The notes under the pieces were generated by a model, which ran no database searches, was not told where the DNA came from, and was given only the letters and a program-made list of their open reading frames with translations. The position numbers and the translations under genes were made by a program. 64,000 nt of DNA, from positions 2,046,001-2,110,000 of the forward strand of contig NZ_CP166730.1 in assembly GCF_041320665.1 (NCBI RefSeq), given 5' to 3'. Positions within the stretch are counted from its first letter, which is position 1; the number at the start of each line of letters is the position of its first letter. This DNA is from Comamonas sp. GB3 AK4-5. Lineage in GTDB: Bacteria; Pseudomonadota; Gammaproteobacteria; Burkholderiales; Burkholderiaceae_C. Below are positions 1,246 through 10,113 of this stretch, in pieces.

Positions 1246-2205
1246 ATGCAGCGACGTATATTTTTGGCAGGAACAGCCCTGGGGTTGAGCGCTTTGGGCG
1301 CCTGCACCACCACCAAGAAAAACTATCAAGATGAAGCGGCAGCCGGTATACCCCGGGATGCCGACCAGGCATTGCAGGCCGCAGCCCGCCAGGTAGAGGC
1401 GCAGACCGGTGGCCGTCTGGGCCTGGCCGTGCTGGACACGGGCAGCGGTCGCCAGCTGAGCTGGCGCGGTGGCGAACGCTTTGCGCTGTGCAGCACCTTC
1501 AAAACATTGCTGGCGGCCCAGGTGCTGCAGCGCGCCGAGCAGGGCAAGGAAGTGTTGCACCGCCGCGTGCTCTACCGCCGTGACGAGCTGGTGAGCTATT
1601 CCCCCGTGACCGAGGAATGGGCCGACACCCTGGAGGGACTGAGCGTGCAATCGCTGCTGCGCGCCAGCGTGGTGCTCAGCGACAACACCGCTGCCAATCT
1701 GCTGCTGCGCAGCGTGGGAGGGCCCGAGGCCTTGACCGAGTGGCTGCGCGGGCTGGGCGACACCGAAACCCGGCTGGACCGCTGGGAGCCCGAGCTCAAC
1801 AGCGCCAAGCCCGGCGATGTGCGCGACACCACCACGCCCGATGCCATGACCCGCACCCTGCGCCGCCTGCTGGTGGACGAGAGCGTGCTGCAGGCGCCCA
1901 GCAGCACGCAACTGACGCGCTGGCTGGTGCAAAGCCGCACCGGCGACCAGCGCGTGCGCGCCGGTTTTCCGGTGGACTGGGTGGCGGGGGGCAAGACCGG
2001 CTCGGGCGAACGCGGCACCAGCAATGACACGCTGATTGTCTGGCCCGGCCCGCGCAAGCCGCCCATGCTGGTGGCCTGCTATCTCACCGACAGCCGCCAG
2101 AGCGCGGCGCTGCGCGATGCCCAACTGGCCCGCCTGGGTGCGGCCCTGGTGCAATGGCAGCAAGCCGGGCCTGCGCCGGCAGGCGCCACGGCCACGCTGC
2201 CTTAG
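1246..2205 (+). CDS. class A beta-lactamase
   Basis: A periplasmic serine beta-lactamase that hydrolyses beta-lactam antibiotics. The 319-aa product has all class A motifs: STFK at residues 83-86 (nucleophile Ser83), SDN at 145-147, EPELN with the general base Glu181, and KTG at 250-252. The N-terminus (MQRRIFLAGTALGLSALGAC) has twin arginines and ends in a lipobox-like LGAC with Cys20, so the enzyme may be a lipoprotein. The residue after KTGS is Gly rather than Cys, so the extra disulfide of KPC-type carbapenemases is absent. GGGGAGG lies just before the ATG. The divergent LysR gene is its expected regulator but is broken. The stop TAG overlaps the target duplication and first base of the mobile element that follows. 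Confidence 0.93.
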   Translation: MQRRIFLAGTALGLSALGACTTTKKNYQDEAAAGIPRDADQALQAAARQVEAQTGGRLGLAVLDTGSGRQLSWRGGERFALCSTFKTLLAAQVLQRAEQGKEVLHRRVLYRRDELVSYSPVTEEWADTLEGLSVQSLLRASVVLSDNTAANLLLRSVGGPEALTEWLRGLGDTETRLDRWEPELNSAKPGDVRDTTTPDAMTRTLRRLLVDESVLQAPSSTQLTRWLVQSRTGDQRVRAGFPVDWVAGGKTGSGERGTSNDTLIVWPGPRKPPMLVACYLTDSRQSAALRDAQLARLGAALVQWQQAGPAPAGATATLP

Positions 2206-2470
2206 AGCGTGTTCACGATCTCCTCGCGACGCGCCAGTGTCTTTGCGGGATGGGATACAAGGCGCGATACCGCAGCAATAGCCGCGCTATTGCGAGGATT
2301 CGCAACACCGTAGACCGCCCGCAAAGCCACTGGCCCGAAGGGTTGGAGCGAAATCGGGCGATTTCTTCGCGCTGGGGCTGGCTTGCACCCCGGTGCAAGC
2401 TGCGCCCCATCGGCTCGAACTCATCCCGATTGCGCTTCAACGCGCCTGCGTAGAGATCGTGAACACGCTC
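2205..2470. mobile_element. 266-bp non-autonomous IS5-like element (MITE), copy 1
   Basis: The element has perfect 18-bp terminal inverted repeats, GAGCGTGTTCACGATCTC at the left and its reverse complement at the right end. It is flanked by TTA direct repeats (2202-2204 and 2471-2473). A second copy, about 90% alike and in opposite orientation, lies at 11699-11967; an internally deleted copy lies at 8712-8766. The ends match 14 of 18 positions of the left end of the IS5-family element at 63228, which suggests mobilisation by that kind of transposase. On the minus strand it holds a 75-codon frame (2440 to 2213, TTG start) that stays open in the other long copy. Confidence 0.85.
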
Positions 2471-2640
2471 TTATATGCCGGGCTGAATACTGCTCTGCCT
2501 GCCTGGGCGCGTGCCGAGCGCGTGACCTGGGCAGGGCGGCAGAGCAGGGTAAGCGATAGGGCTGCGCTGTTGCGGCCGGGCAGACGGAGGCGGCGAATCG
2601 ACCCCGGTGGTTGAGGTGCATCAAAGGTGGGTCACCTCAA

Positions 2641-2669
2641 TTGTCACAAAACGTAATTAATGCCCTAAA
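2641..2669 (+). promoter_or_regulatory. putative sigma-70 promoter of receptor cassette 1
   Basis: TTGTCA (2641-2646) and CCTAAA (2664-2669) are separated by 17 bp. The same layout recurs before the second cassette (5785-5813, TTGTCA and CATAAA), and the intervening CAAAACGTAAT is identical. Conservation in a region where the sequence just upstream differs supports a functional promoter. A start near 2676 would leave a leader of about 35 nt. Confidence 0.55.
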
Positions 2670-2711
2670 AAGCATTTCCTTCGTTTTGCTTGCTGCCTGC
2701 TGCCCACCACC

Positions 2712-3860
2712 ATGCGACGTATTCGCCAGAGCGATCTGGTCCTGAATGAGCCCTTGCCTTGGCCGCTGTTTGATGAAAACGGCAACTTGCTGCTGCGCGA
2801 AGGCTATGTGCTGAGCATTCCGCGCCACATCAATGCCTTGCTGGAGCGTGGCGCTTTCGCACCCGATTTGCCGGCTAATGATGCGGACCAGCCCACGCTG
2901 GCCTTGCCCGAATGCCATGCCCGGCCGCAGGCGGGCGACCCGGTGTTCGAGCGTGCCGACACCCTGGCCATGACGCTCAAGCGCCTGCATGCCCATTTGC
3001 AAAGCGGCTCTTTGAAGGCAGAGCTGCGCCCGGTGGTGCTGGGCCTGGCCCACGGCATTGTCGATGCCTGTAACGAAGACGCCGATGCGCTGCTGGCAGC
3101 CCTGCACCTGAGCCGCCAGCACCCTTATCTGGTCATCCAGCAACTGCTGGGCGCGACCTTGGTGGAGATGGCTGCGCGCGAGCTGCCGCTGGACGAGCCC
3201 ACGCGCCTGTCGCTGGCCTGTGCGGCGCTCACCCGTGATCTGTCCCTGTTGCCGCTGCAGGCCCAGCTGGACAAGCAGGACGGCGCACTGACCACTCCGC
3301 AAATCGAGCAGGTGCGCAGCCATCCCGAGCGCTCCGCCTCGCTGCTGCTGGAGATGGGGGTGACGGATACGCTGTGGCTGGAACTGGTGCGCCAGCACCA
3401 CGAGCGCATCGATGGCTCGGGCTACCCCCATGCCTTGCACGGCGATGCCATCCTGCCCGGTGCCAGGCTGCTGGCGATTGCCGACTCCTACGCCGCCATG
3501 GTCACGCCGCGCCCCAACCGCCCGGGGCAGTTCCCGCGCGAGGCCTTGAAGTCCTTGTTCCAGGACCGCGCCCGGCTGTATGACGACCCGCTGCTGCAGC
3601 TGTCCATCAAGACGCTGACCATGTACCCGCCCGGCATGCTGGCGCGCCTGGCCAATGGTGAGTTTGCAGTGGTGCGCTCACGGAACCGGCACAACGACTC
3701 GCTGGATCTGTGGAGCCTGTACGACAGCAGCGGCATGCCCATTCTGCAGCCGCAGCGTCGCGACTCGAACGACCCCGCGCACGACATCACCGGCACGCTG
3801 CGGGTGGAGGAGTGCCGCAGCGCCGCCCTGGTGCTCAAACGTCTGTGGATGCAATCCTAG
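2712..3860 (+). CDS. degenerate HD-GYP domain protein, copy 1
   Basis: A 382-aa cytoplasmic protein whose middle part aligns with HD-GYP domains, the hydrolases that normally degrade cyclic di-GMP. The GYP signature is intact (HHERIDGSGYP, residues 229-239), as are the upstream His204 (SHPE) and downstream Asp258 (AIADSY). The HDIGK motif is replaced by RDLSL around residue 175, and the first histidine ligand position reads IQQ. Two metal-ligand histidines are therefore missing, so I infer weak or no phosphodiesterase activity and perhaps a nucleotide-binding role. An N-terminal segment (1-110) and a C-terminal segment (290-382) flank the domain and match nothing I recognise. No Shine-Dalgarno sequence is visible before the ATG. 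The receptor gene follows 15 bp downstream, presumably in the same operon. Confidence 0.75.
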   Translation: MRRIRQSDLVLNEPLPWPLFDENGNLLLREGYVLSIPRHINALLERGAFAPDLPANDADQPTLALPECHARPQAGDPVFERADTLAMTLKRLHAHLQSGSLKAELRPVVLGLAHGIVDACNEDADALLAALHLSRQHPYLVIQQLLGATLVEMAARELPLDEPTRLSLACAALTRDLSLLPLQAQLDKQDGALTTPQIEQVRSHPERSASLLLEMGVTDTLWLELVRQHHERIDGSGYPHALHGDAILPGARLLAIADSYAAMVTPRPNRPGQFPREALKSLFQDRARLYDDPLLQLSIKTLTMYPPGMLARLANGEFAVVRSRNRHNDSLDLWSLYDSSGMPILQPQRRDSNDPAHDITGTLRVEECRSAALVLKRLWMQS

Positions 3861-3875
3861 AGAAAGCCCTTGTCC

Positions 3876-5573
3876 ATGAAGCAGAACCTGCCTGTGACCA
3901 TCCGGCAAACCGAAATCCCGCCGGGGGCAAACCTGGTCTCCAAGACCGACCTCAAGGGCCTCATCACCTACGCCAACGAGGCCTTTGTCGAGGTCAGCGG
4001 CTACACGCTGGAGGAGCTGCTGCACCGCAGCCACAACATCGTGCGCCACCCCGATATGCCGCCCGCTGCCTTTGCCGAGATGTGGGCCACGCTGCAGCGC
4101 GGCCATCCCTGGCGCGGCATGGTCAAGAACCGCTGCAAGGACGGTGGCTACTACTGGGTGGATGCCTGTGTCGTGCCCATCACGCGGCATGACCAGGTGA
4201 CGGGCTATATGTCGGTGCGCAGGCACGCTGCGCCCGAGGCCATTGCCTCTGCCGAAGCCCTGTATGCCCGCATGGCCGCAGGCCACAAACCGCGCCGTCT
4301 GCAACTGCCGCGCTGGCTGGGCATACGCAGCGGCATGCGGGCCGGCAGCCTGTTTGTGGCAGCGCTGATGCTGGCCGGCGGCGTGCTGGGCATAGGCGGG
4401 CTGACGCTGGCGGACCGCGCTTTCTCGCGCCTGTACCACGGCCAACTGGAGCCGGTGGCGGCCATTGGCGCCATCGAAGCGCGGCTGAGCGAGAGCCACA
4501 CCACCATGCTGGAAATACGCCTGGCACGGCGTGACCAGGCCATTGCCGGCGACCCGAGCACGGCGCTGGAGGTGCAGGTGGCCAGGCTGCGTGCCAACCG
4601 TGACGAAATCCATCGCCTGCTGGACCAGCTCAAGGGCACGACGGAGGAAGTCACGCTGCAAAAACTGCGGCTGACCGAGGCATTGACGCATTACACCGAC
4701 GACGGTCTGCGCTGGGTGGAGCAGGCGGCCGCGCGCGACAATCTGGCCCAGGTGGACCGCCTGGTGGCCTTGCGCGTGCTGCCGCTGGAGCAAGACGCCA
4801 TGGCCGCCGCCGTGGACCTGCGCCAGGCCTTGCTGGGCGCGGCCCAGGGCGAGTACGGCGACACGCTGGAGCGCAATGCCCGCATTCGCTACTTTGCGGC
4901 GGCAGGCATTTTGTTTGGCCTGCTGGTGGTGGCCCTGGTGGGGCATATGTTCATTCGCGGCATTGTCGATCCGCTCAATGCCTCCATACGCCGGCTCAAC
5001 CGCATCGCCCAGGGCGATCTGCAGGGCGAGATCGATCTGTCCGGTACGGGCGAGAGCGGTCAGCTCAACCATGCGGCCGCCGTCATGCAGCTGCACCTGA
5101 AGGTCATGATCGACGAAATCGCCCTGGCGGCGCGGCGCATTCACCGTCACTGCGCCACGCTGAACACCGCCTTGTACGAGGTGACCGAGCATTCCGAAGA
5201 GCAGCATGAACGCGTCTACGCCGCCATCACGGCGCTGGACGCGGCCATGGCCGAAACCAGCGATCTGGGTGTGCGGGCCGAGCGTTTGCTGCATCTGGCC
5301 AGCCAGCAGGAATCGCCTGGCACAGGCCAGGCGCTGGTGCAGGATGCGCGCGAGCTGGCCACCGCCACCCGCTTGGCCGCCTTTGGCGCGGAGGAAGTGG
5401 CGCGCAGCATGCACCAGGTGGCCGATTTGATTGTGGAAAACCGGGGCGAGGCCCAGCGTGCCTGGCTGGCCTCGGAAGCGCTCAAGCACACGGCGGGCGA
5501 GCTCAAGCTGCTGGTGGACTATTTCGAGCCGCCCGCGCCCGCGCCTGAGGCAGAGCCCATGGCATTGGCTTGA
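3876..5573 (+). CDS. Aer-like PAS/HAMP membrane receptor with atypical output, copy 1
   Basis: A 565-aa membrane protein. Residues 20-115 form a PAS domain of the Aer/redox-sensor kind (ANEAFVEVSGY, RHPDMP, RCKDGGYYWVDA). A membrane segment at about 157-178 precedes an extracytoplasmic helical region (about 180-335) and a second membrane segment (about 340-360). A HAMP-like region (364-410, DPLNASIRR, GDLQGEI) and a helical C-terminal part follow. The highly conserved chemoreceptor hairpin tip that binds CheW and CheA (QTNLLALNAAVEAARAGE in ordinary receptors) is absent; the C-terminal part is short and ends in a Pro-rich tail. It looks like a chemoreceptor whose signalling hairpin has collapsed. 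ATG 3876 is preferred over the in-frame TTG at 3870. Its partner is probably the HD-GYP-like protein encoded just upstream. Confidence 0.75.
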   Translation: MKQNLPVTIRQTEIPPGANLVSKTDLKGLITYANEAFVEVSGYTLEELLHRSHNIVRHPDMPPAAFAEMWATLQRGHPWRGMVKNRCKDGGYYWVDACVVPITRHDQVTGYMSVRRHAAPEAIASAEALYARMAAGHKPRRLQLPRWLGIRSGMRAGSLFVAALMLAGGVLGIGGLTLADRAFSRLYHGQLEPVAAIGAIEARLSESHTTMLEIRLARRDQAIAGDPSTALEVQVARLRANRDEIHRLLDQLKGTTEEVTLQKLRLTEALTHYTDDGLRWVEQAAARDNLAQVDRLVALRVLPLEQDAMAAAVDLRQALLGAAQGEYGDTLERNARIRYFAAAGILFGLLVVALVGHMFIRGIVDPLNASIRRLNRIAQGDLQGEIDLSGTGESGQLNHAAAVMQLHLKVMIDEIALAARRIHRHCATLNTALYEVTEHSEEQHERVYAAITALDAAMAETSDLGVRAERLLHLASQQESPGTGQALVQDARELATATRLAAFGAEEVARSMHQVADLIVENRGEAQRAWLASEALKHTAGELKLLVDYFEPPAPAPEAEPMALA

Positions 5574-5672
5574 ATGCTCAGGCCCCTGGGGATGGCGGTC
5601 ACGGCCGCCATCACCGTAGCAACAGCGATGGAGGTTGCGCCAGTTGCTGCGGCGCTTTCCTGGCCGCTTTGC

Positions 5673-5692
5673 AGGCCTGCGGAGGCCTTTTT
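5673..5692 (+). terminator. putative intrinsic terminator after receptor 1
   Basis: AGGCCT (5673-5678) and AGGCCT (5683-5688) are self-complementary arms around a GCGG loop, followed by TTTTT. It lies 100 bp downstream of the first receptor gene and before the promoter of the second cassette, so the two units are probably transcribed separately. Confidence 0.5.
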
Positions 5693-5784
5693 GGGTGGCT
5701 AGCAATTAGCGAGAGGAATAGCTAGAGGACAAATGCCTGTCAACTGATGAGTGGTCGATATACATCAAAAACACACATCGGCAA

Positions 5785-5813
5785 TTGTCACAAAACGTAA
5801 TGCATGTCATAAA
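5785..5813 (+). promoter_or_regulatory. putative sigma-70 promoter of receptor cassette 2
   Basis: TTGTCA (5785-5790), a 17-bp spacer and CATAAA (5808-5813). Element by element this matches the promoter at 2641-2669, and the -10 box is slightly closer to consensus. The expected start near 5820 leaves a leader of about 38 nt that, as in copy 1, lacks an obvious ribosome-binding site. Confidence 0.55.
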
Positions 5814-5857
5814 AAAAGCATTCTTTTCGTTTTGCTTGCTGACTGCAGCCCATCATC

Positions 5858-7006
5858 ATGCGACGTATTTGTCAGAGCGATTTGGTCCTGAATGCGCCTT
5901 TGCCATGGTCGCTGTTTGACGAAAACGGCAACCTGCTGCTGCGCGAAGGCTATGTGCTGAGCATTCCGCGCCACATCAATGCCTTGCTGGAGCGCGGTGC
6001 GTTTGCCCTCGAGCTGCCGGCCCAGGATGCGGACCCCTCCACGCTGACCCTCCCTGAATGCCATGTTCTGCCGCAGGCCGGTGACTCGGTGTTCGAGCGT
6101 GCAGACAGCCTGGCCATGACGCTCAAGCGCCTGCATGCCCATTTGCAGGCCGGCTCGTTGAAGATGGAGCTGCGCTTGGTGGTGCAAGGCCTGGCCCACG
6201 GCATTGTGGAGGCCTGTAACGAAGACGCCGACGCGCTGCTGGCGGCCCTGCACCTGACGCGCCAGCACCCCTATCTGGTCATACAGCAGCTGCTGGGCGC
6301 CACGCTGGTGGACATGGTGGCACGCGAGCTGCCGCTGGATGAGCCCACGCGCTTGTCGCTGCTCTGTGCGGCGCTGACCCGCGATCTGTCTTTGCTGCCG
6401 CTGCAGCCGGTGCTGGACAAGCAGGACGGGCCGCTGACCTACCCGCAGCTGGAGCAGATGCGCAGCCACCCCGAGCGTGCGGTGCAGCTGCTGTTGGAGA
6501 TGGGCATCACCGACATGCTGTGGCTGGATCTGGTGCAGCAACACCACGAGCGCATGGATGGCTCGGGCTACCCCCATGCACTGCGCGGTGCAGCCATCCT
6601 GCCCGGTGCCCGGCTGCTGGCGATTGCCGACTCCTACGCGGCCATGGTGACGCCACGCTCCAACCGCGTGGAACAGTCTCCGCACGAGGCCTTGAAGACC
6701 CTGTTCCAAGACAACACCCAGCGCTATGACGACCCGTTGCTGCAGCAGTTCCTCAAGACGCTGACCATGTACCCGCCGGGCATGTTGGTGAAGCTGGCCA
6801 ATGGCGAGTCTGCGGTGGTGCGCTCGCGCTACGGACTGAACGATGCGCTGGACCTGTGGTGTCTGTATGACAGCAGCAGCATGCCGGTGCTGCGCCCGCA
6901 GTGGCGCGATGCGAATGACCCCGCGCATGAGATCGCCGGCACGCTGCGGGTGGAGGAATGCCGCAGCGCCGCTCTGGTGCTCAAACGCCTGTGGATGCAA
7001 TCCTAG
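5858..7006 (+). CDS. degenerate HD-GYP domain protein, copy 2
   Basis: This 382-aa paralogue of the protein at 2712-3860 has the same length and the same defects. HHERMDGSGYP keeps the GYP signature and the SHPE histidine and AIADSY aspartate remain, while the HD motif again reads RDLSL and the first histidine position reads IQQ. Because the lost ligands were already lost in both copies, the degeneration predates the duplication, and the fold has since been kept open. That argues for a non-catalytic but selected function, such as binding cyclic di-GMP or a protein partner. Differences from copy 1 are concentrated in the linker around residues 50-80 and near the C-terminal third. It is followed 15 bp later by receptor copy 2. 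Confidence 0.75.
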   Translation: MRRICQSDLVLNAPLPWSLFDENGNLLLREGYVLSIPRHINALLERGAFALELPAQDADPSTLTLPECHVLPQAGDSVFERADSLAMTLKRLHAHLQAGSLKMELRLVVQGLAHGIVEACNEDADALLAALHLTRQHPYLVIQQLLGATLVDMVARELPLDEPTRLSLLCAALTRDLSLLPLQPVLDKQDGPLTYPQLEQMRSHPERAVQLLLEMGITDMLWLDLVQQHHERMDGSGYPHALRGAAILPGARLLAIADSYAAMVTPRSNRVEQSPHEALKTLFQDNTQRYDDPLLQQFLKTLTMYPPGMLVKLANGESAVVRSRYGLNDALDLWCLYDSSSMPVLRPQWRDANDPAHEIAGTLRVEECRSAALVLKRLWMQS

Positions 7007-7021
7007 AGAAAGTCTGTGCCC

Positions 7022-8701
7022 ATGAAAGAAAACCTGCCTGCGACATCCCGAAAAGCCGAAGTCCCGCCAGGGGTGAAGCTGATCTCCAAGACCGACCTCC
7101 AGGGCGTGATCACCTCGGCCAACGAGGCTTTGTGCGAGGTCAGCGGTTATTCGCTGGACGAGCTGCTGCACACCCAGCACAGCAAGCTGCGCCACCCCGA
7201 CATGCCGGAGGCCATCTTTGCCCAGATGTGGGCCACGCTGCAACGCGGCCACCTGTGGCGCGGCATGCTCAAAAACCGTTGCAAGGACGGCGGCTACTAC
7301 TGGGTGGACGCCAGTGTGGCGCCCATCAGGCGGCATGACCGGGTGATGGGCTATATGTCGGTGTGCAAGCGCGCCTCGGCCGATGCGGTGGCCGCTGCCG
7401 AGGCTTTGCATGCCCGGCTGGCCGCGGGCTACAAGCCGCGCCGTCTGCATCTGCCGCGCTGGCTGGGTGTGCGCGGAGGCATGCGGGCCGGCAGCCTGTT
7501 TGTGGCGGTGCTGATGCTGGCCGGTGGCGCCCTGGGGATGGGGGGCTTGACGCTGGCAGACCGTGCTTTCTCGCGTCTGTACCACGGCCAGCTGGAGCCG
7601 GTGGCCGCCATCGGGGCCATCGAAGTGGGGCTGCATGAGAGTCGGGCCACCATGCTGGAAATTCGCCTGGCGCGCAACGGGGGGGTACAGCCCGCGGCCA
7701 ATGGCAGACCCTCGGAGCTGGAAGCCCAGATTGCCAAGCTGCGCAGCAACCGCGATGACATCCTCCAGTTGCTGGACCAGCTCAAGGACACGACAGAAGA
7801 AGTCGCCCAGCAAAAAGCATGGCTGGTCCAGGCTTTGACCTACTACACCAACGATGGGCTGCTGCGGGTGGAGCTGGCAGCCGCACACGACGATTCAGCC
7901 CAGGTGGACCAGTTGGTGGCCCAGCGCGTGCTGCCGCTGGAGCAGCAGGCCATGGCGGCGGCCGTGGACCTGCGCTATGCGCTGCTGAATGCGGCCAAGG
8001 CGGAATACCAGGATACGTTGGAGCGCAATGCCCGCATCCGTTACTTTGCGGCGGCCGGCATTGCACTAGGCCTGCTGGTGCTGGCATTGGTGGGGCATTT
8101 GTTCATCCGCAGCATTGTGGACCCGCTCAATGCCTCCATACGCCGGTTCAACCGCATCGCCCAGGGCGATCTGCAGGGCGAGATGGATTTGTCGGACTCT
8201 GGCGAGAGCGGTCAGCTCAACCATGCGGCCGCCATCATGCAGCTGCATCTGAAGGTGATGCTCGATGAGATCGCCGTGGCGGCGCGGCGCATTCACCGCC
8301 ACTGCGCCACGCTGAATGCCACCTTGTACGGGGTGACCGAGCATTCGGAAGAGCAGCATGAGCGCGTGTATGGCGCCATCAGGGCGCTGGATGCCTTTAC
8401 GGTCGAAACCAGCGATCTGAGTGCGCGGGCAGAGCGTTTGCTGCAACTGGCCAGCCAGCAGGAGTCACCAGGTGCGGGCGAGTCGCTGGTGCAGGACGCA
8501 CGCGAGCTGGCCACCGCGACCCGGCTGGCCGCCTTCGGCACCGAGGAGGTGGCGCGCAGCATGCACCAGGTGGCCGAGTTGATCGTGGAAAACCGGGGGG
8601 AGGCCCAGCGCGCCTGGCTGGCATCGGAAGCGCTCAAGCAGACGGCGGGCGAACTCAAGCTGCTGCTGGACTACTTCGAGCTGCCCGCGCCTGCGCCGTA
8701 A
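7022..8701 (+). CDS. Aer-like PAS/HAMP membrane receptor with atypical output, copy 2
   Basis: A 559-aa paralogue of the product of 3876-5573 with the same architecture: PAS (about 20-115), membrane helix, extracytoplasmic helical region, second helix, HAMP-like segment and short helical C-terminus ending YFELPAPAP. It also lacks the CheW/CheA-binding tip. PAS residues differ in the cofactor-pocket region (TSANEALCEVSGYSLDELLHTQHSKLRHPDMPE by position against the TYANEAF... of copy 1), and the extracytoplasmic part differs more than the membrane-proximal part. I infer that the copies could sense different signals while sharing output. ATG 7022 is chosen because it matches the start of copy 1. 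The gene ends 10 bp before a small mobile element. Confidence 0.75.
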   Translation: MKENLPATSRKAEVPPGVKLISKTDLQGVITSANEALCEVSGYSLDELLHTQHSKLRHPDMPEAIFAQMWATLQRGHLWRGMLKNRCKDGGYYWVDASVAPIRRHDRVMGYMSVCKRASADAVAAAEALHARLAAGYKPRRLHLPRWLGVRGGMRAGSLFVAVLMLAGGALGMGGLTLADRAFSRLYHGQLEPVAAIGAIEVGLHESRATMLEIRLARNGGVQPAANGRPSELEAQIAKLRSNRDDILQLLDQLKDTTEEVAQQKAWLVQALTYYTNDGLLRVELAAAHDDSAQVDQLVAQRVLPLEQQAMAAAVDLRYALLNAAKAEYQDTLERNARIRYFAAAGIALGLLVLALVGHLFIRSIVDPLNASIRRFNRIAQGDLQGEMDLSDSGESGQLNHAAAIMQLHLKVMLDEIAVAARRIHRHCATLNATLYGVTEHSEEQHERVYGAIRALDAFTVETSDLSARAERLLQLASQQESPGAGESLVQDARELATATRLAAFGTEEVARSMHQVAELIVENRGEAQRAWLASEALKQTAGELKLLLDYFELPAPAP

Positions 8702-8711
8702 AAAGCGCCTA

Positions 8712-8766
8712 GAGCGTGTTGGCGATCTCTACACTGGCGCGCCGCGAGGAGATCGTGAACACGTTC
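8712..8766. mobile_element. 55-bp internally deleted derivative of the IS5-like element
   Basis: It consists of little more than the two ends of the 266-bp element: GAGCGTGTTGGCGATCTC at the left and GAGATCGTGAACACGTTC at the right, with some 19 bp between. The flanks are CTA on the left and TTA (8767-8769) on the right; the latter is also the stop codon of argA read on the minus strand. The ends carry more substitutions than copy 1. Confidence 0.7.
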
Positions 8767-10113
8767 TTAAAGCTGCTTGACCAGCACCTGGCTCTTGCGG
8801 CTCCAGTTGTACTTGGCCTTGCGCGCCTCGGGCAGCCAGTCCGGATCCACGGGCTGGAAGCCGCGCTTGATGAACCAGTGCATGGTGCGCGTGGTCAGCA
8901 CAAACATGCTGGTGCAGCCCAGTGCGCGGGCGCGCTGCTCGATGCGCTTGAGCAGCTTCTCACCGTCGCCCGTGCCCTGGCTTTTGGGCGAGACGGTGAC
9001 GGCCGCCATCTCGGCGGTCTTGGATTCCAGATAGGGGTGAAGGGCTGCGCAGCCGAAGATCACGCCGTCATGCTCGATCACGGTGTAGCTGGCAATGTCG
9101 CGCTCGATTTCGGTGCGGTCACGCTTGACCAGGGTGCCATCGCGCTCGAAGGGTTCGATCAGCTGGATGATGCCGCCCACATCGTCGATGGTGGCCTCGC
9201 GCAGCTCTTCCAGCTTCTCGTCGATGACCATGGTGCCTATGCCGTCGTGCACATAGATTTCCAGCAGCAGCGCCCCGTCCACGGCAAAAGGCAGGATGTG
9301 GCTGCGCTCCACGCCATGCTCGCAGGCGCGCACACAATGCTGCAGGTAAAAGCCGGCGTCGGCCGGGCTTTGCGCCGGAGGCAGCTGGGCCAGCAGGCGG
9401 CGGGCGCTGTCCACCGGCAACTCGGTGTTGATGGGGTTGTCCTCGCCCTCGGGCTCCAGAGGCTGGGTGCGTATGCCGGCCACCTCGGTCATGAAGAGCA
9501 GCTTGTCGGCCTTGAGCTCGGTGGCCACGCGCGTGGCGACTTCCTCCATGCCCAGGTTGAAGGCCTCGCCCGTGGGTGAAAAGCCAAAGGGCGAGATCAG
9601 CACCATGGCCTGGGAGTCCAGTGCCCGGCGAATGCCTTCCACATCGACCTTGCGCACCAGGCCGGAGTGCATAAAGTCCACCCCGTCCACGATGCCCACC
9701 GGGCGTGCGGTGAGGAAGTTGCCTGAAATGACCCGCACGCGCGCACCGGCCATGGGGGTGTTGGGCAGGCCCTGGCTGAAGGCGGCCTCGATCTCATAGC
9801 GCAGCTGGCCGGCGGCCTCCTGGGCGCAGTCCAGGGCGATGGAGTCGGTCACGCGCACACCGTTGTAGTAGCGCGGCTCCTGGCCCTTGAGGCGCAGCTG
9901 CTCGTTCACCTGGGGTCGAAAGCCATGCACCAGCACAATCTTCACGCCCATGGCCTGGATCAGCGCCAGGTCTTGCACGATGCCCTGCAGCTTGCCGGCG
10001 GCAATGGCTTCGCCGGTCAGGCCCACCACGAACGTCTGGTGTCGGAATTTGTGGATATAGGGGGCCACAGACCGGAACCAGGGGACAAAGGTGAAATTGA
10101 AAACCGTGGACAT
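8767..10113 (-). CDS. argA: N-acetylglutamate synthase (amino-acid N-acetyltransferase)
   Basis: Catalyses the first step of arginine biosynthesis, acetyl-CoA plus glutamate to N-acetylglutamate, in the cytoplasm. The 448-aa product has an N-terminal amino-acid-kinase-like domain (VLVHGFRPQVNEQL, LISPFGFSPTGEAFNL, residues about 20-280) and a C-terminal GNAT acetyltransferase domain (AAVTVSPKSQGTGDGEKLLKRIE by position about 370-395). This is the standard ArgA architecture and length. The reading frame stays open upstream of 10113, but MSTVFNF is the usual beginning of betaproteobacterial ArgA, so that ATG is chosen. The gene stands alone. Its TAA coincides with the TTA target repeat of the 55-bp mobile element, so an element inserted right at the stop codon. 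Confidence 0.93.
   Translation of the reverse strand: MSTVFNFTFVPWFRSVAPYIHKFRHQTFVVGLTGEAIAAGKLQGIVQDLALIQAMGVKIVLVHGFRPQVNEQLRLKGQEPRYYNGVRVTDSIALDCAQEAAGQLRYEIEAAFSQGLPNTPMAGARVRVISGNFLTARPVGIVDGVDFMHSGLVRKVDVEGIRRALDSQAMVLISPFGFSPTGEAFNLGMEEVATRVATELKADKLLFMTEVAGIRTQPLEPEGEDNPINTELPVDSARRLLAQLPPAQSPADAGFYLQHCVRACEHGVERSHILPFAVDGALLLEIYVHDGIGTMVIDEKLEELREATIDDVGGIIQLIEPFERDGTLVKRDRTEIERDIASYTVIEHDGVIFGCAALHPYLESKTAEMAAVTVSPKSQGTGDGEKLLKRIEQRARALGCTSMFVLTTRTMHWFIKRGFQPVDPDWLPEARKAKYNWSRKSQVLVKQL

Follow-up and report, generated by a model that had tools for sequence, protein, structure and literature searches.

A tip-less chemoreceptor and a degenerate HD-GYP protein: a probable oxygen-linked signalling module in betaproteobacteria

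The duplicated pair and its proteins

Comamonas sp. GB3 AK4-5 carries, on a single 5.05 Mb contig (NZ_CP166730.1), two diverged copies of a two-gene unit that probably represents an undescribed oxygen-linked signalling module. The copies lie in tandem in the window, which is the 64,000-nucleotide stretch of DNA analysed here (positions 2,046,001 to 2,110,000 of the contig). In each unit a gene for a degenerate HD-GYP protein (HD1, HD2) comes first, and the ATG of a gene for an Aer-type receptor (R1, R2) is found 15 nt past its stop codon (Table 1). All four open reading frames (ORFs) are intact, and an earlier note on this DNA had correctly described two tandem units with every gene open. Receptor starts were taken at the conserved ATG codons (3876 and 7022); the ORF list places them at a TTG (3870) and a GTG (7016). 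As judged from sequence, the two proteins are kept together, each without the usual output part of its family.

Table 1. Features of the duplicated locus, in window coordinates
Feature	Coordinates	Strand	Remarks
Tandem repeat unit 1	2638..5545	+	matches 5782-8697 at 83.8% DNA identity
Tandem repeat unit 2	5782..8697	+	counterpart of unit 1 (2638-5545)
HD1, degenerate HD-GYP protein, TRD replaces HD	2712..3860	+	382 aa
R1, Aer-type PAS-TM-4HB-TM-HAMP receptor (TM, transmembrane segment), shortened tip-less hairpin	3876..5573	+	565 aa
HD2, second degenerate HD-GYP protein, TRD	5858..7006	+	382 aa; 83% identity with HD1
R2, second tip-less receptor	7022..8701	+	559 aa; 78% identity with R1
FNR/Anr-type box TTGAGGTGCATCAA (9/10)	2611..2624	+	centre ~94 nt 5' of HD1 start
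FNR/Anr-type box TCGATATACATCAA (9/10)	5755..5768	+	centre ~96 nt 5' of HD2 start
Terminator-like hairpins between units, two overlapping consensus matches	5667..5688	+	not evidence of function

The tip of a methyl-accepting chemotaxis protein (MCP) forms trimers and binds CheA and CheW. R1 and R2 match the Pfam families PAS_3, TarH/4HB and, weakly, HAMP, which falls below the cut-off in R1, and each has two TM segments as read from the sequence and from the helices of the R1 model. Neither matches MCPsignal at E ≤ 1. The earlier note saw a PAS-TM-HAMP receptor lacking the tip; the lack of the tip stands, the C-terminus giving no score against the full MCP signalling model, and the domain order needs the addition of a periplasmic 4HB/TarH domain. 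Among 18 tip-less receptors that were scanned, TarH and 4HB are present in all, HAMP in seven and HAMP_2 in nine, and none has PF00015 (MCPsignal) at E ≤ 0.01; two relatives with the tip score 148 and 143 bits. PF00015 is likewise listed for none of 75 database homologues, two of which are the window's own receptors. Names are given for 15 of these homologues and read methyl-accepting chemotaxis protein, aerotaxis receptor or PAS-domain protein, with one hypothetical; receptors of this kind are annotated as chemotaxis or aerotaxis proteins although they do not have the defining chemoreceptor part.

In the R1 model the cytoplasmic portion consists of two helices (residues 392-477 and 484-550). 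The stretch from the motif HLKVM to a C-terminal F measures 139 residues in R1 and R2 and 277 in five tip-bearing relatives, and about 138 hairpin residues are, by this comparison, missing. The stretch is readable in these five relatives and in 21 of the 25 modules described below, and in some lineages it contains a Pro- and acid-rich insert. Closest by sequence are MCPs of the same order that carry the tip and have a PAS-4HB-HAMP architecture (L123 and L131 among them). These have an identical domain order, but have the 277-residue stretch and no HD-GYP gene of the family in their short flanks.

HD1 and HD2 match Pfam HD_5 (1.9e-24 and 8.6e-23), and the HD-GYP fold is found in the window protein. 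HD1 is degenerate, as the earlier note had it: Arg (R175) replaces the His of the HD motif and Leu (L179) the Lys of GK, and the HD Asp, H204, HHE, GYP and D258 are kept. The loss of this key metal ligand extends to all 25 paired proteins, which have Arg at the His site (TRD in 23, GRD in two). The GK Lys is absent from every one of them (Leu in 18, Gln in seven), and D176, H204, H229, H230, G235, G237, Y238, P239 and D258 are present in every one. By contrast, Arg is not found at the His site in any of 46 sampled unpaired relatives (Met 28, His 8, Ala 8, Lys 2). The sample was drawn from 25 plus 20 high-scoring loci of two longer lists, and unpaired means that no such receptor is present in the flank examined, which was about 1.5 kb or about 5 kb, and shorter at contig ends for L033, L038, L179 and L182. 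Degeneracy of the HD motif as a novelty in itself was considered and rejected, since the His is also lost in 38 of the 46 unpaired relatives. Specific to the module is the Arg at this site together with a tip-less partner.

The HD structural model is nearest to Bd1817 and to c-di-GMP-bound DvhD (c-di-GMP, cyclic di-GMP). We know of no tip-less receptor partner of Bd1817. This unconventional HD-GYP protein of Bdellovibrio (PDB 3tm8, 3tmd) is the nearest fold, with VIA Z 23.0, and differs in that it departs in the Tyr of GYP, according to the title of the PDB entry.

Two further observations concern the unpaired proteins. TMN, SMN or VMN stands in place of the HD motif in 28 of the 46, all from the same order (most of L021-L044; L187-L190). 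The degenerate HD-GYP genes at L020 (SAD), L025 (TAD) and L030 (SMN) adjoin a second HD-GYP ORF, on the same strand in L020 and L025 and on the opposite strand in L030.

Pairing, descent and duplication

After removal of duplicates between collections there are 25 intact modules in 23 genomes; one further locus, L086, is cut by a contig start and is excluded. In all 25 the two genes are adjacent and on one strand with the HD-GYP gene leading, and the distance from HD stop to receptor start ranges from -4 to 178 nt. The earlier note had proposed a dedicated two-gene system, and this arrangement agrees with the proposal. It had also asked how often homologues occur apart; they rarely do, and two lone receptors (L152, L153) are counted as exceptions.

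The pairing holds at increasing phylogenetic distance. A search of 53 genomes of the genus gives eight receptors in six genomes at E ≤ 1e-60, all of which adjoin an HD-GYP gene, and the pairs persist down to 36% HD-GYP identity. In the family (299 genomes) the tip-less C-terminus is matched over its full length at E ≤ 2e-48 in five genomes, all paired, and the next match is partial (4e-14). In the order (399 genomes) nine, including Comamonas sp. GB3 AK4-5, match at E ≤ 2e-51, and again all are paired. Matches at E ≤ 1e-15 occur in 43 of the 399; the tip was checked in 21 weaker loci (L123-L143) and all bear it. The tip motif lies in the receptor ORF in 20 of these, and at the remaining one, L132, the ORF is divided between two frames with the motif in the second. 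No other genome in a class sample of 369 matches at E ≤ 1e-25. Two paired genomes, G478 and G605, bear a second, lone tip-less receptor (1.4e-38 and 3.4e-38), and a match in G156 (4e-13, positions 2-188; about 300 residues, L159) was set aside. The genome searches scored up to 26, 6, 11, 8 or 4 first-look candidates per genome, so that copies may have been missed.

A scan of named genomes gives 39 loci. Seventeen are full-length at E ≤ 5e-22, of which 16 are paired, the other being L086; the remaining 22 (L092-L113) match more weakly and in part, and their domain ranges led to their exclusion as ordinary MCP-like proteins. Paired named genomes include Paenacidovorax caeni, Comamonas avium, C. 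denitrificans, Aquaspirillum serpens and Noviherbaspirillum denitrificans, and paired metagenome-assembled genomes (MAGs) include ones named Gallionellaceae, Sulfuricella, Laribacter, Rhodocyclaceae and Glaciimonas. The label Chitinophaga on one of the 17 full-length loci looks wrong, since its apparent counterpart G103 is filed in the window's own family. When the search is reversed, every genome of the order with an HD-GYP protein above 340 bits is paired, and 20 loci from lower HD-GYP rows (≤337 bits) show no such receptor in a flank of mostly about 5 kb.

Trees of the two proteins describe a common history. In the HD tree (the short L185 left out) a branch supported at 99/89 separates the paired proteins from 45 unpaired rows, and the unpaired group nearest to the paired ones retains the His (THD). 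In the receptor tree the 25 paired and two lone tip-less receptors stand on one side at 100/100, against 25 tip-bearing rows, with the lone ones nested within the tip-less group; bootstrap in this tree is unsettled, four tip-bearing rows are poorly filled and T_L137 is omitted. The trees agree in their main groups. Pairwise HD and receptor distances correlate at r=0.94 (largest of 2000 shuffles, 0.39), a value that has no species-tree control and includes same-genus modules, which are non-independent. The Comamonas denitrificans module clusters with L089, G265 and Glaciimonas in both trees, away from other Comamonas, and that of G576, from another family, falls among Comamonas and Paenacidovorax modules in both. 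Because these placements match between trees, they suggest that the module moved between lineages as a unit.

The ratio of non-synonymous to synonymous substitution rates (dN/dS) between the window copies is 0.26 (NG86) and 0.24 (YN00) for HD1/HD2 and 0.315 (NG86) for R1/R2. Both copies are thus under purifying selection, as the earlier note expected, and the range of 0.24-0.32 is well away from the value near 1 that it had named as counting against its view. Within the receptor the ratio is 0.51 by NG86 (0.23 by YN00) for PAS, 0.31 (0.34) for the periplasmic part, and 0.21 (NG86) from HAMP to the C-terminus. By part, these values weakly suggest that sensing may have diverged between the copies and output been constrained.

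Copy 2 clusters with G035b at 100/100 in both trees, and therefore the duplication predates the split from G035. G035 copy a follows LysR and beta-lactamase genes, like window unit 1, and copy b is followed by argA, a major facilitator superfamily (MFS) gene and a phosphoesterase gene, like window unit 2. The G035 copies are on different contigs; either the array is split there or the MAG is mis-joined. The earlier note viewed both outputs as rewired in a duplicated cassette. Both losses are real, but they are common to the whole module family and predate the window duplication.

Oxygen link, proposed mechanism and alternatives

The receptor PAS domain is close to that of Aer. N34, H58, D60 and W79 are found in all 25 receptors and R57 in 23; these we take to be residues that bind flavin adenine dinucleotide (FAD). 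At the sequence level the domain matches the PAS of E. coli Aer (31cj 2.8e-46, 8dik 6.1e-42), and the predicted fold superposes on 8dik with TM score 0.93 and root mean square deviation 1.3, the FAD-PAS of NifL coming next. The window receptor therefore resembles E. coli Aer in PAS sequence, fold and conserved residues. It differs in that Aer retains the MCP signalling domain, whereas the window receptor has no tip and has a periplasmic 4HB domain.

A second link to oxygen lies upstream of the genes. The consensus of FNR/Anr sites is TTGAT-N4-ATCAA. The box before unit 1 is TTGAG-N4-ATCAA and that before unit 2 is TCGAT-N4-ATCAA, with one mismatch each, and they are the only FNR-type sites in the 64 kb at up to one mismatch (0.35 expected; three of 100 shuffles had two). 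The earlier note had placed a promoter before each unit; a sigma-70 consensus scan of the locus gave 0 (0.9 expected), whereas an FNR-type box does precede each. A box of at least 9/10 occurs within 250 nt upstream in 16 of the 25 modules (four perfect) and in 0 of 101 in-gene windows; the counts come from related modules and are non-independent. G035a and G035b each carry the exact box letters of their own window orthologue. The host genome encodes Fnr (240.5 bits, cut-off 228). A separate observation is that one of the 16 perfect FNR-type palindromes of the genome (G000:C1:1260079-1260092) precedes, by ~150 nt, the PAS match in an Aer-type receptor that has the tip (L006).

We consider it reasonably probable that each unit is an operon, preceded by an FNR box, for a dedicated module of two proteins, linked to oxygen or redox and free of CheA, in which the HD-GYP protein is non-catalytic. 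In such a module the PAS domain would sense redox or oxygen through FAD, and 4HB would respond to a cue from the periplasm. The state of the receptor would pass through HAMP and the short hairpin to the HD-GYP protein docked on the hairpin. This protein would not hydrolyse c-di-GMP; it would have a switch or adaptor role instead, possibly with a cyclic dinucleotide bound as in DvhD, and outside CheA chemotaxis would control a c-di-GMP enzyme or some other target. The operon would be under FNR control. GGDEF is found in all 18 module genomes tested, so gene content gives no reason to leave c-di-GMP out. In two genomes a third gene, for a DUF3391 HD-GYP protein with an intact HDIGK, overlaps the end of the receptor gene (L148, L151), which fits action on c-di-GMP turnover. 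Somewhat more tentatively, the pairs may form a separate signalling class, a chemoreceptor without the CheA tip with a catalytically dead HD-GYP partner, oxygen-regulated and kinase-free. The two genes would have spread together as one unit among betaproteobacteria, with the intact-motif HD-GYP added as a third gene in one lineage.

Several observations weigh against this module. The lone tip-less receptors at L152 and L153 have no HD-GYP gene of the family within ~10.5 kb, and the receptor may therefore act alone or with a distant partner. The domain of CheA, PF02895, is present in all 18 module genomes tested (the other five of the 23 are known only as named loci and were left out), so gene content leaves room for coupling to chemotaxis. 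Loss of chemotaxis as the cause of the loss of the tip was rejected on the same count. An FNR box is weak or missing in nine of the 25 modules, and one of at least 9/10 precedes six of the 46 unpaired HD-GYP genes; four of these six are in the THD sister group, three of the four being near copies. The c-di-GMP contacts of DvhD, mapped by hand from an alignment and from passages of PMC13090378, are kept at only four of six positions in HD1, and R267 is kept in 20 of the 25 paired proteins. Metal ligands besides the HD His mostly remain, and altered catalysis is therefore possible. The R1 model has a predicted local distance difference test score (pLDDT) of 81.8 and a predicted template modelling score (pTM) of 0.52. 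No fusion of receptor and HD-GYP protein occurs among the 75 homologues, the length of which was limited, and the correlation of distances is to be read with the limits given above. The genomes of L152 and L153 are related to each other, and both also hold a full pair.

The main rival, which we judge unlikely, reverses the direction of the signal. The degenerate HD-GYP protein would act as receptor for c-di-GMP and drive the membrane protein, the signal passing from the cytoplasm through HAMP to the periplasmic 4HB, in the manner proposed for DvhD and LapD. DvhD of Desulfovibrio vulgaris (PDB 9rbz, 9rc0), which with Bd1817 makes up the two nearest folds, binds c-di-GMP but does not hydrolyse it, and inside-out signalling has been proposed for it (passages of PMC13090378). 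Like the module, it has an HD-GYP fold with a replaced HD motif and a membrane sensor with PAS, and its HD-GYP is a non-catalytic switch, as that of the module would be. Several of its contact residues are kept, but its phosphate-contacting K582 has no Lys counterpart in HD1. DvhD is also one polypeptide with dCache and PAS, whereas the module consists of two genes in all 25 cases, and it has SQ for HD and MN for HH where the module has RD and HH. It belongs to a Lap-like adhesin system, and no LapG-like protease or adhesin is named among 20 module neighbour proteins scanned (14 loci; four proteins without a family). Finally, the Aer-type PAS and the FNR box point to a cytoplasmic redox input.

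Less likely again is that the HD-GYP protein has remained an enzyme whose metal use or substrate has changed, the receptor regulating a catalytic phosphodiesterase. The nine residues conserved in every paired protein, from D176 to D258, speak for this, but the same 25 proteins uniformly have Arg for the HD His and no GK Lys. DvhD, in which HH is replaced as well as HD, showed no hydrolysis in passages of PMC13090378; the parallel is a looser one, HH being kept here. The loss of the His coincides with pairing, since the sister unpaired group keeps it.

It is improbable that the receptor still serves chemotaxis, joining ordinary arrays and tuning them, with the HD-GYP protein as a c-di-GMP-dependent brake. 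The CheA domain in every module genome tested and the role of E. coli Aer as an energy-taxis receptor would suit this, but the part that binds CheA and CheW is absent. Redox receptors linked to c-di-GMP or split between two genes are known, the PilZ-bearing Aer/Tlp1 of Azospirillum and CetA/CetB of Campylobacter, and these differ as taxis receptors with an MCP signalling domain (passages of PMC13401364; PMC2628428). That the genes are two unrelated remnants, side by side by chance or decay, is scarcely credible: defining residues are lost from both proteins, but the genes adjoin in 25 modules from several families, dN/dS lies well under 1 and the trees are similar.

Returning to the oxygen-linked, CheA-free module, another degenerate HD-GYP protein that can be compared with it is NosR of Burkholderia pseudomallei, a response regulator proposed to act on other c-di-GMP enzymes (passages of PMC12570481); it differs in being driven by histidine-kinase phosphorylation. 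In Comamonas one HD-GYP gene only is conserved, the c-di-GMP genes being otherwise diversified, according to passages of PMC6299040. No description of the receptor/HD-GYP pair was found in the literature searched, most subscription papers lying outside its coverage, and the passages of PMC13401364, PMC12805831, PMC8846402, PMC12570481 and PMC6299040 do not mention it. Should the two genes indeed form a module, the architecture of a chemoreceptor is detachable from CheA and can be reused with a non-catalytic protein of a c-di-GMP family, and oxygen or redox could have a route to c-di-GMP control without a kinase. The module also offers a testable role for a betaproteobacterial HD-GYP group with broken HD motifs.

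Neighbouring genes and repeats

Apart from the HD-GYP gene at L148 and L151, no third partner is common to the 20 neighbour proteins scanned, 16 of which have a family. At L148 a PAS protein with MCPsignal comes after the HDIGK HD-GYP. HD-GYP genes that keep the HD motif are also found near the module at L087 (8823-10082, minus strand, HDVGK) and L079 (2372-3931, plus strand, HDVGM); the former is just past the module on the other strand and the latter upstream of it.

In the window, a consensus scan of positions 2100-9000 finds seven terminator-like sites against 3.8 expected. A LysR-type regulator gene and a class A beta-lactamase-like gene lie at 287-2205, directly upstream of unit 1; in G035, relatives of both stand ahead of copy a as well (L075). 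A 30-base dispersed repeat (CTGGCGCGYCGCGAGGAGATCGTGAACACG) at 2208-2237 (minus strand) and 8734-8763 (plus strand) brackets the duplicated pair in inverted orientation. It has 47 sites in the genome at up to three mismatches, and its reversed control has 0.

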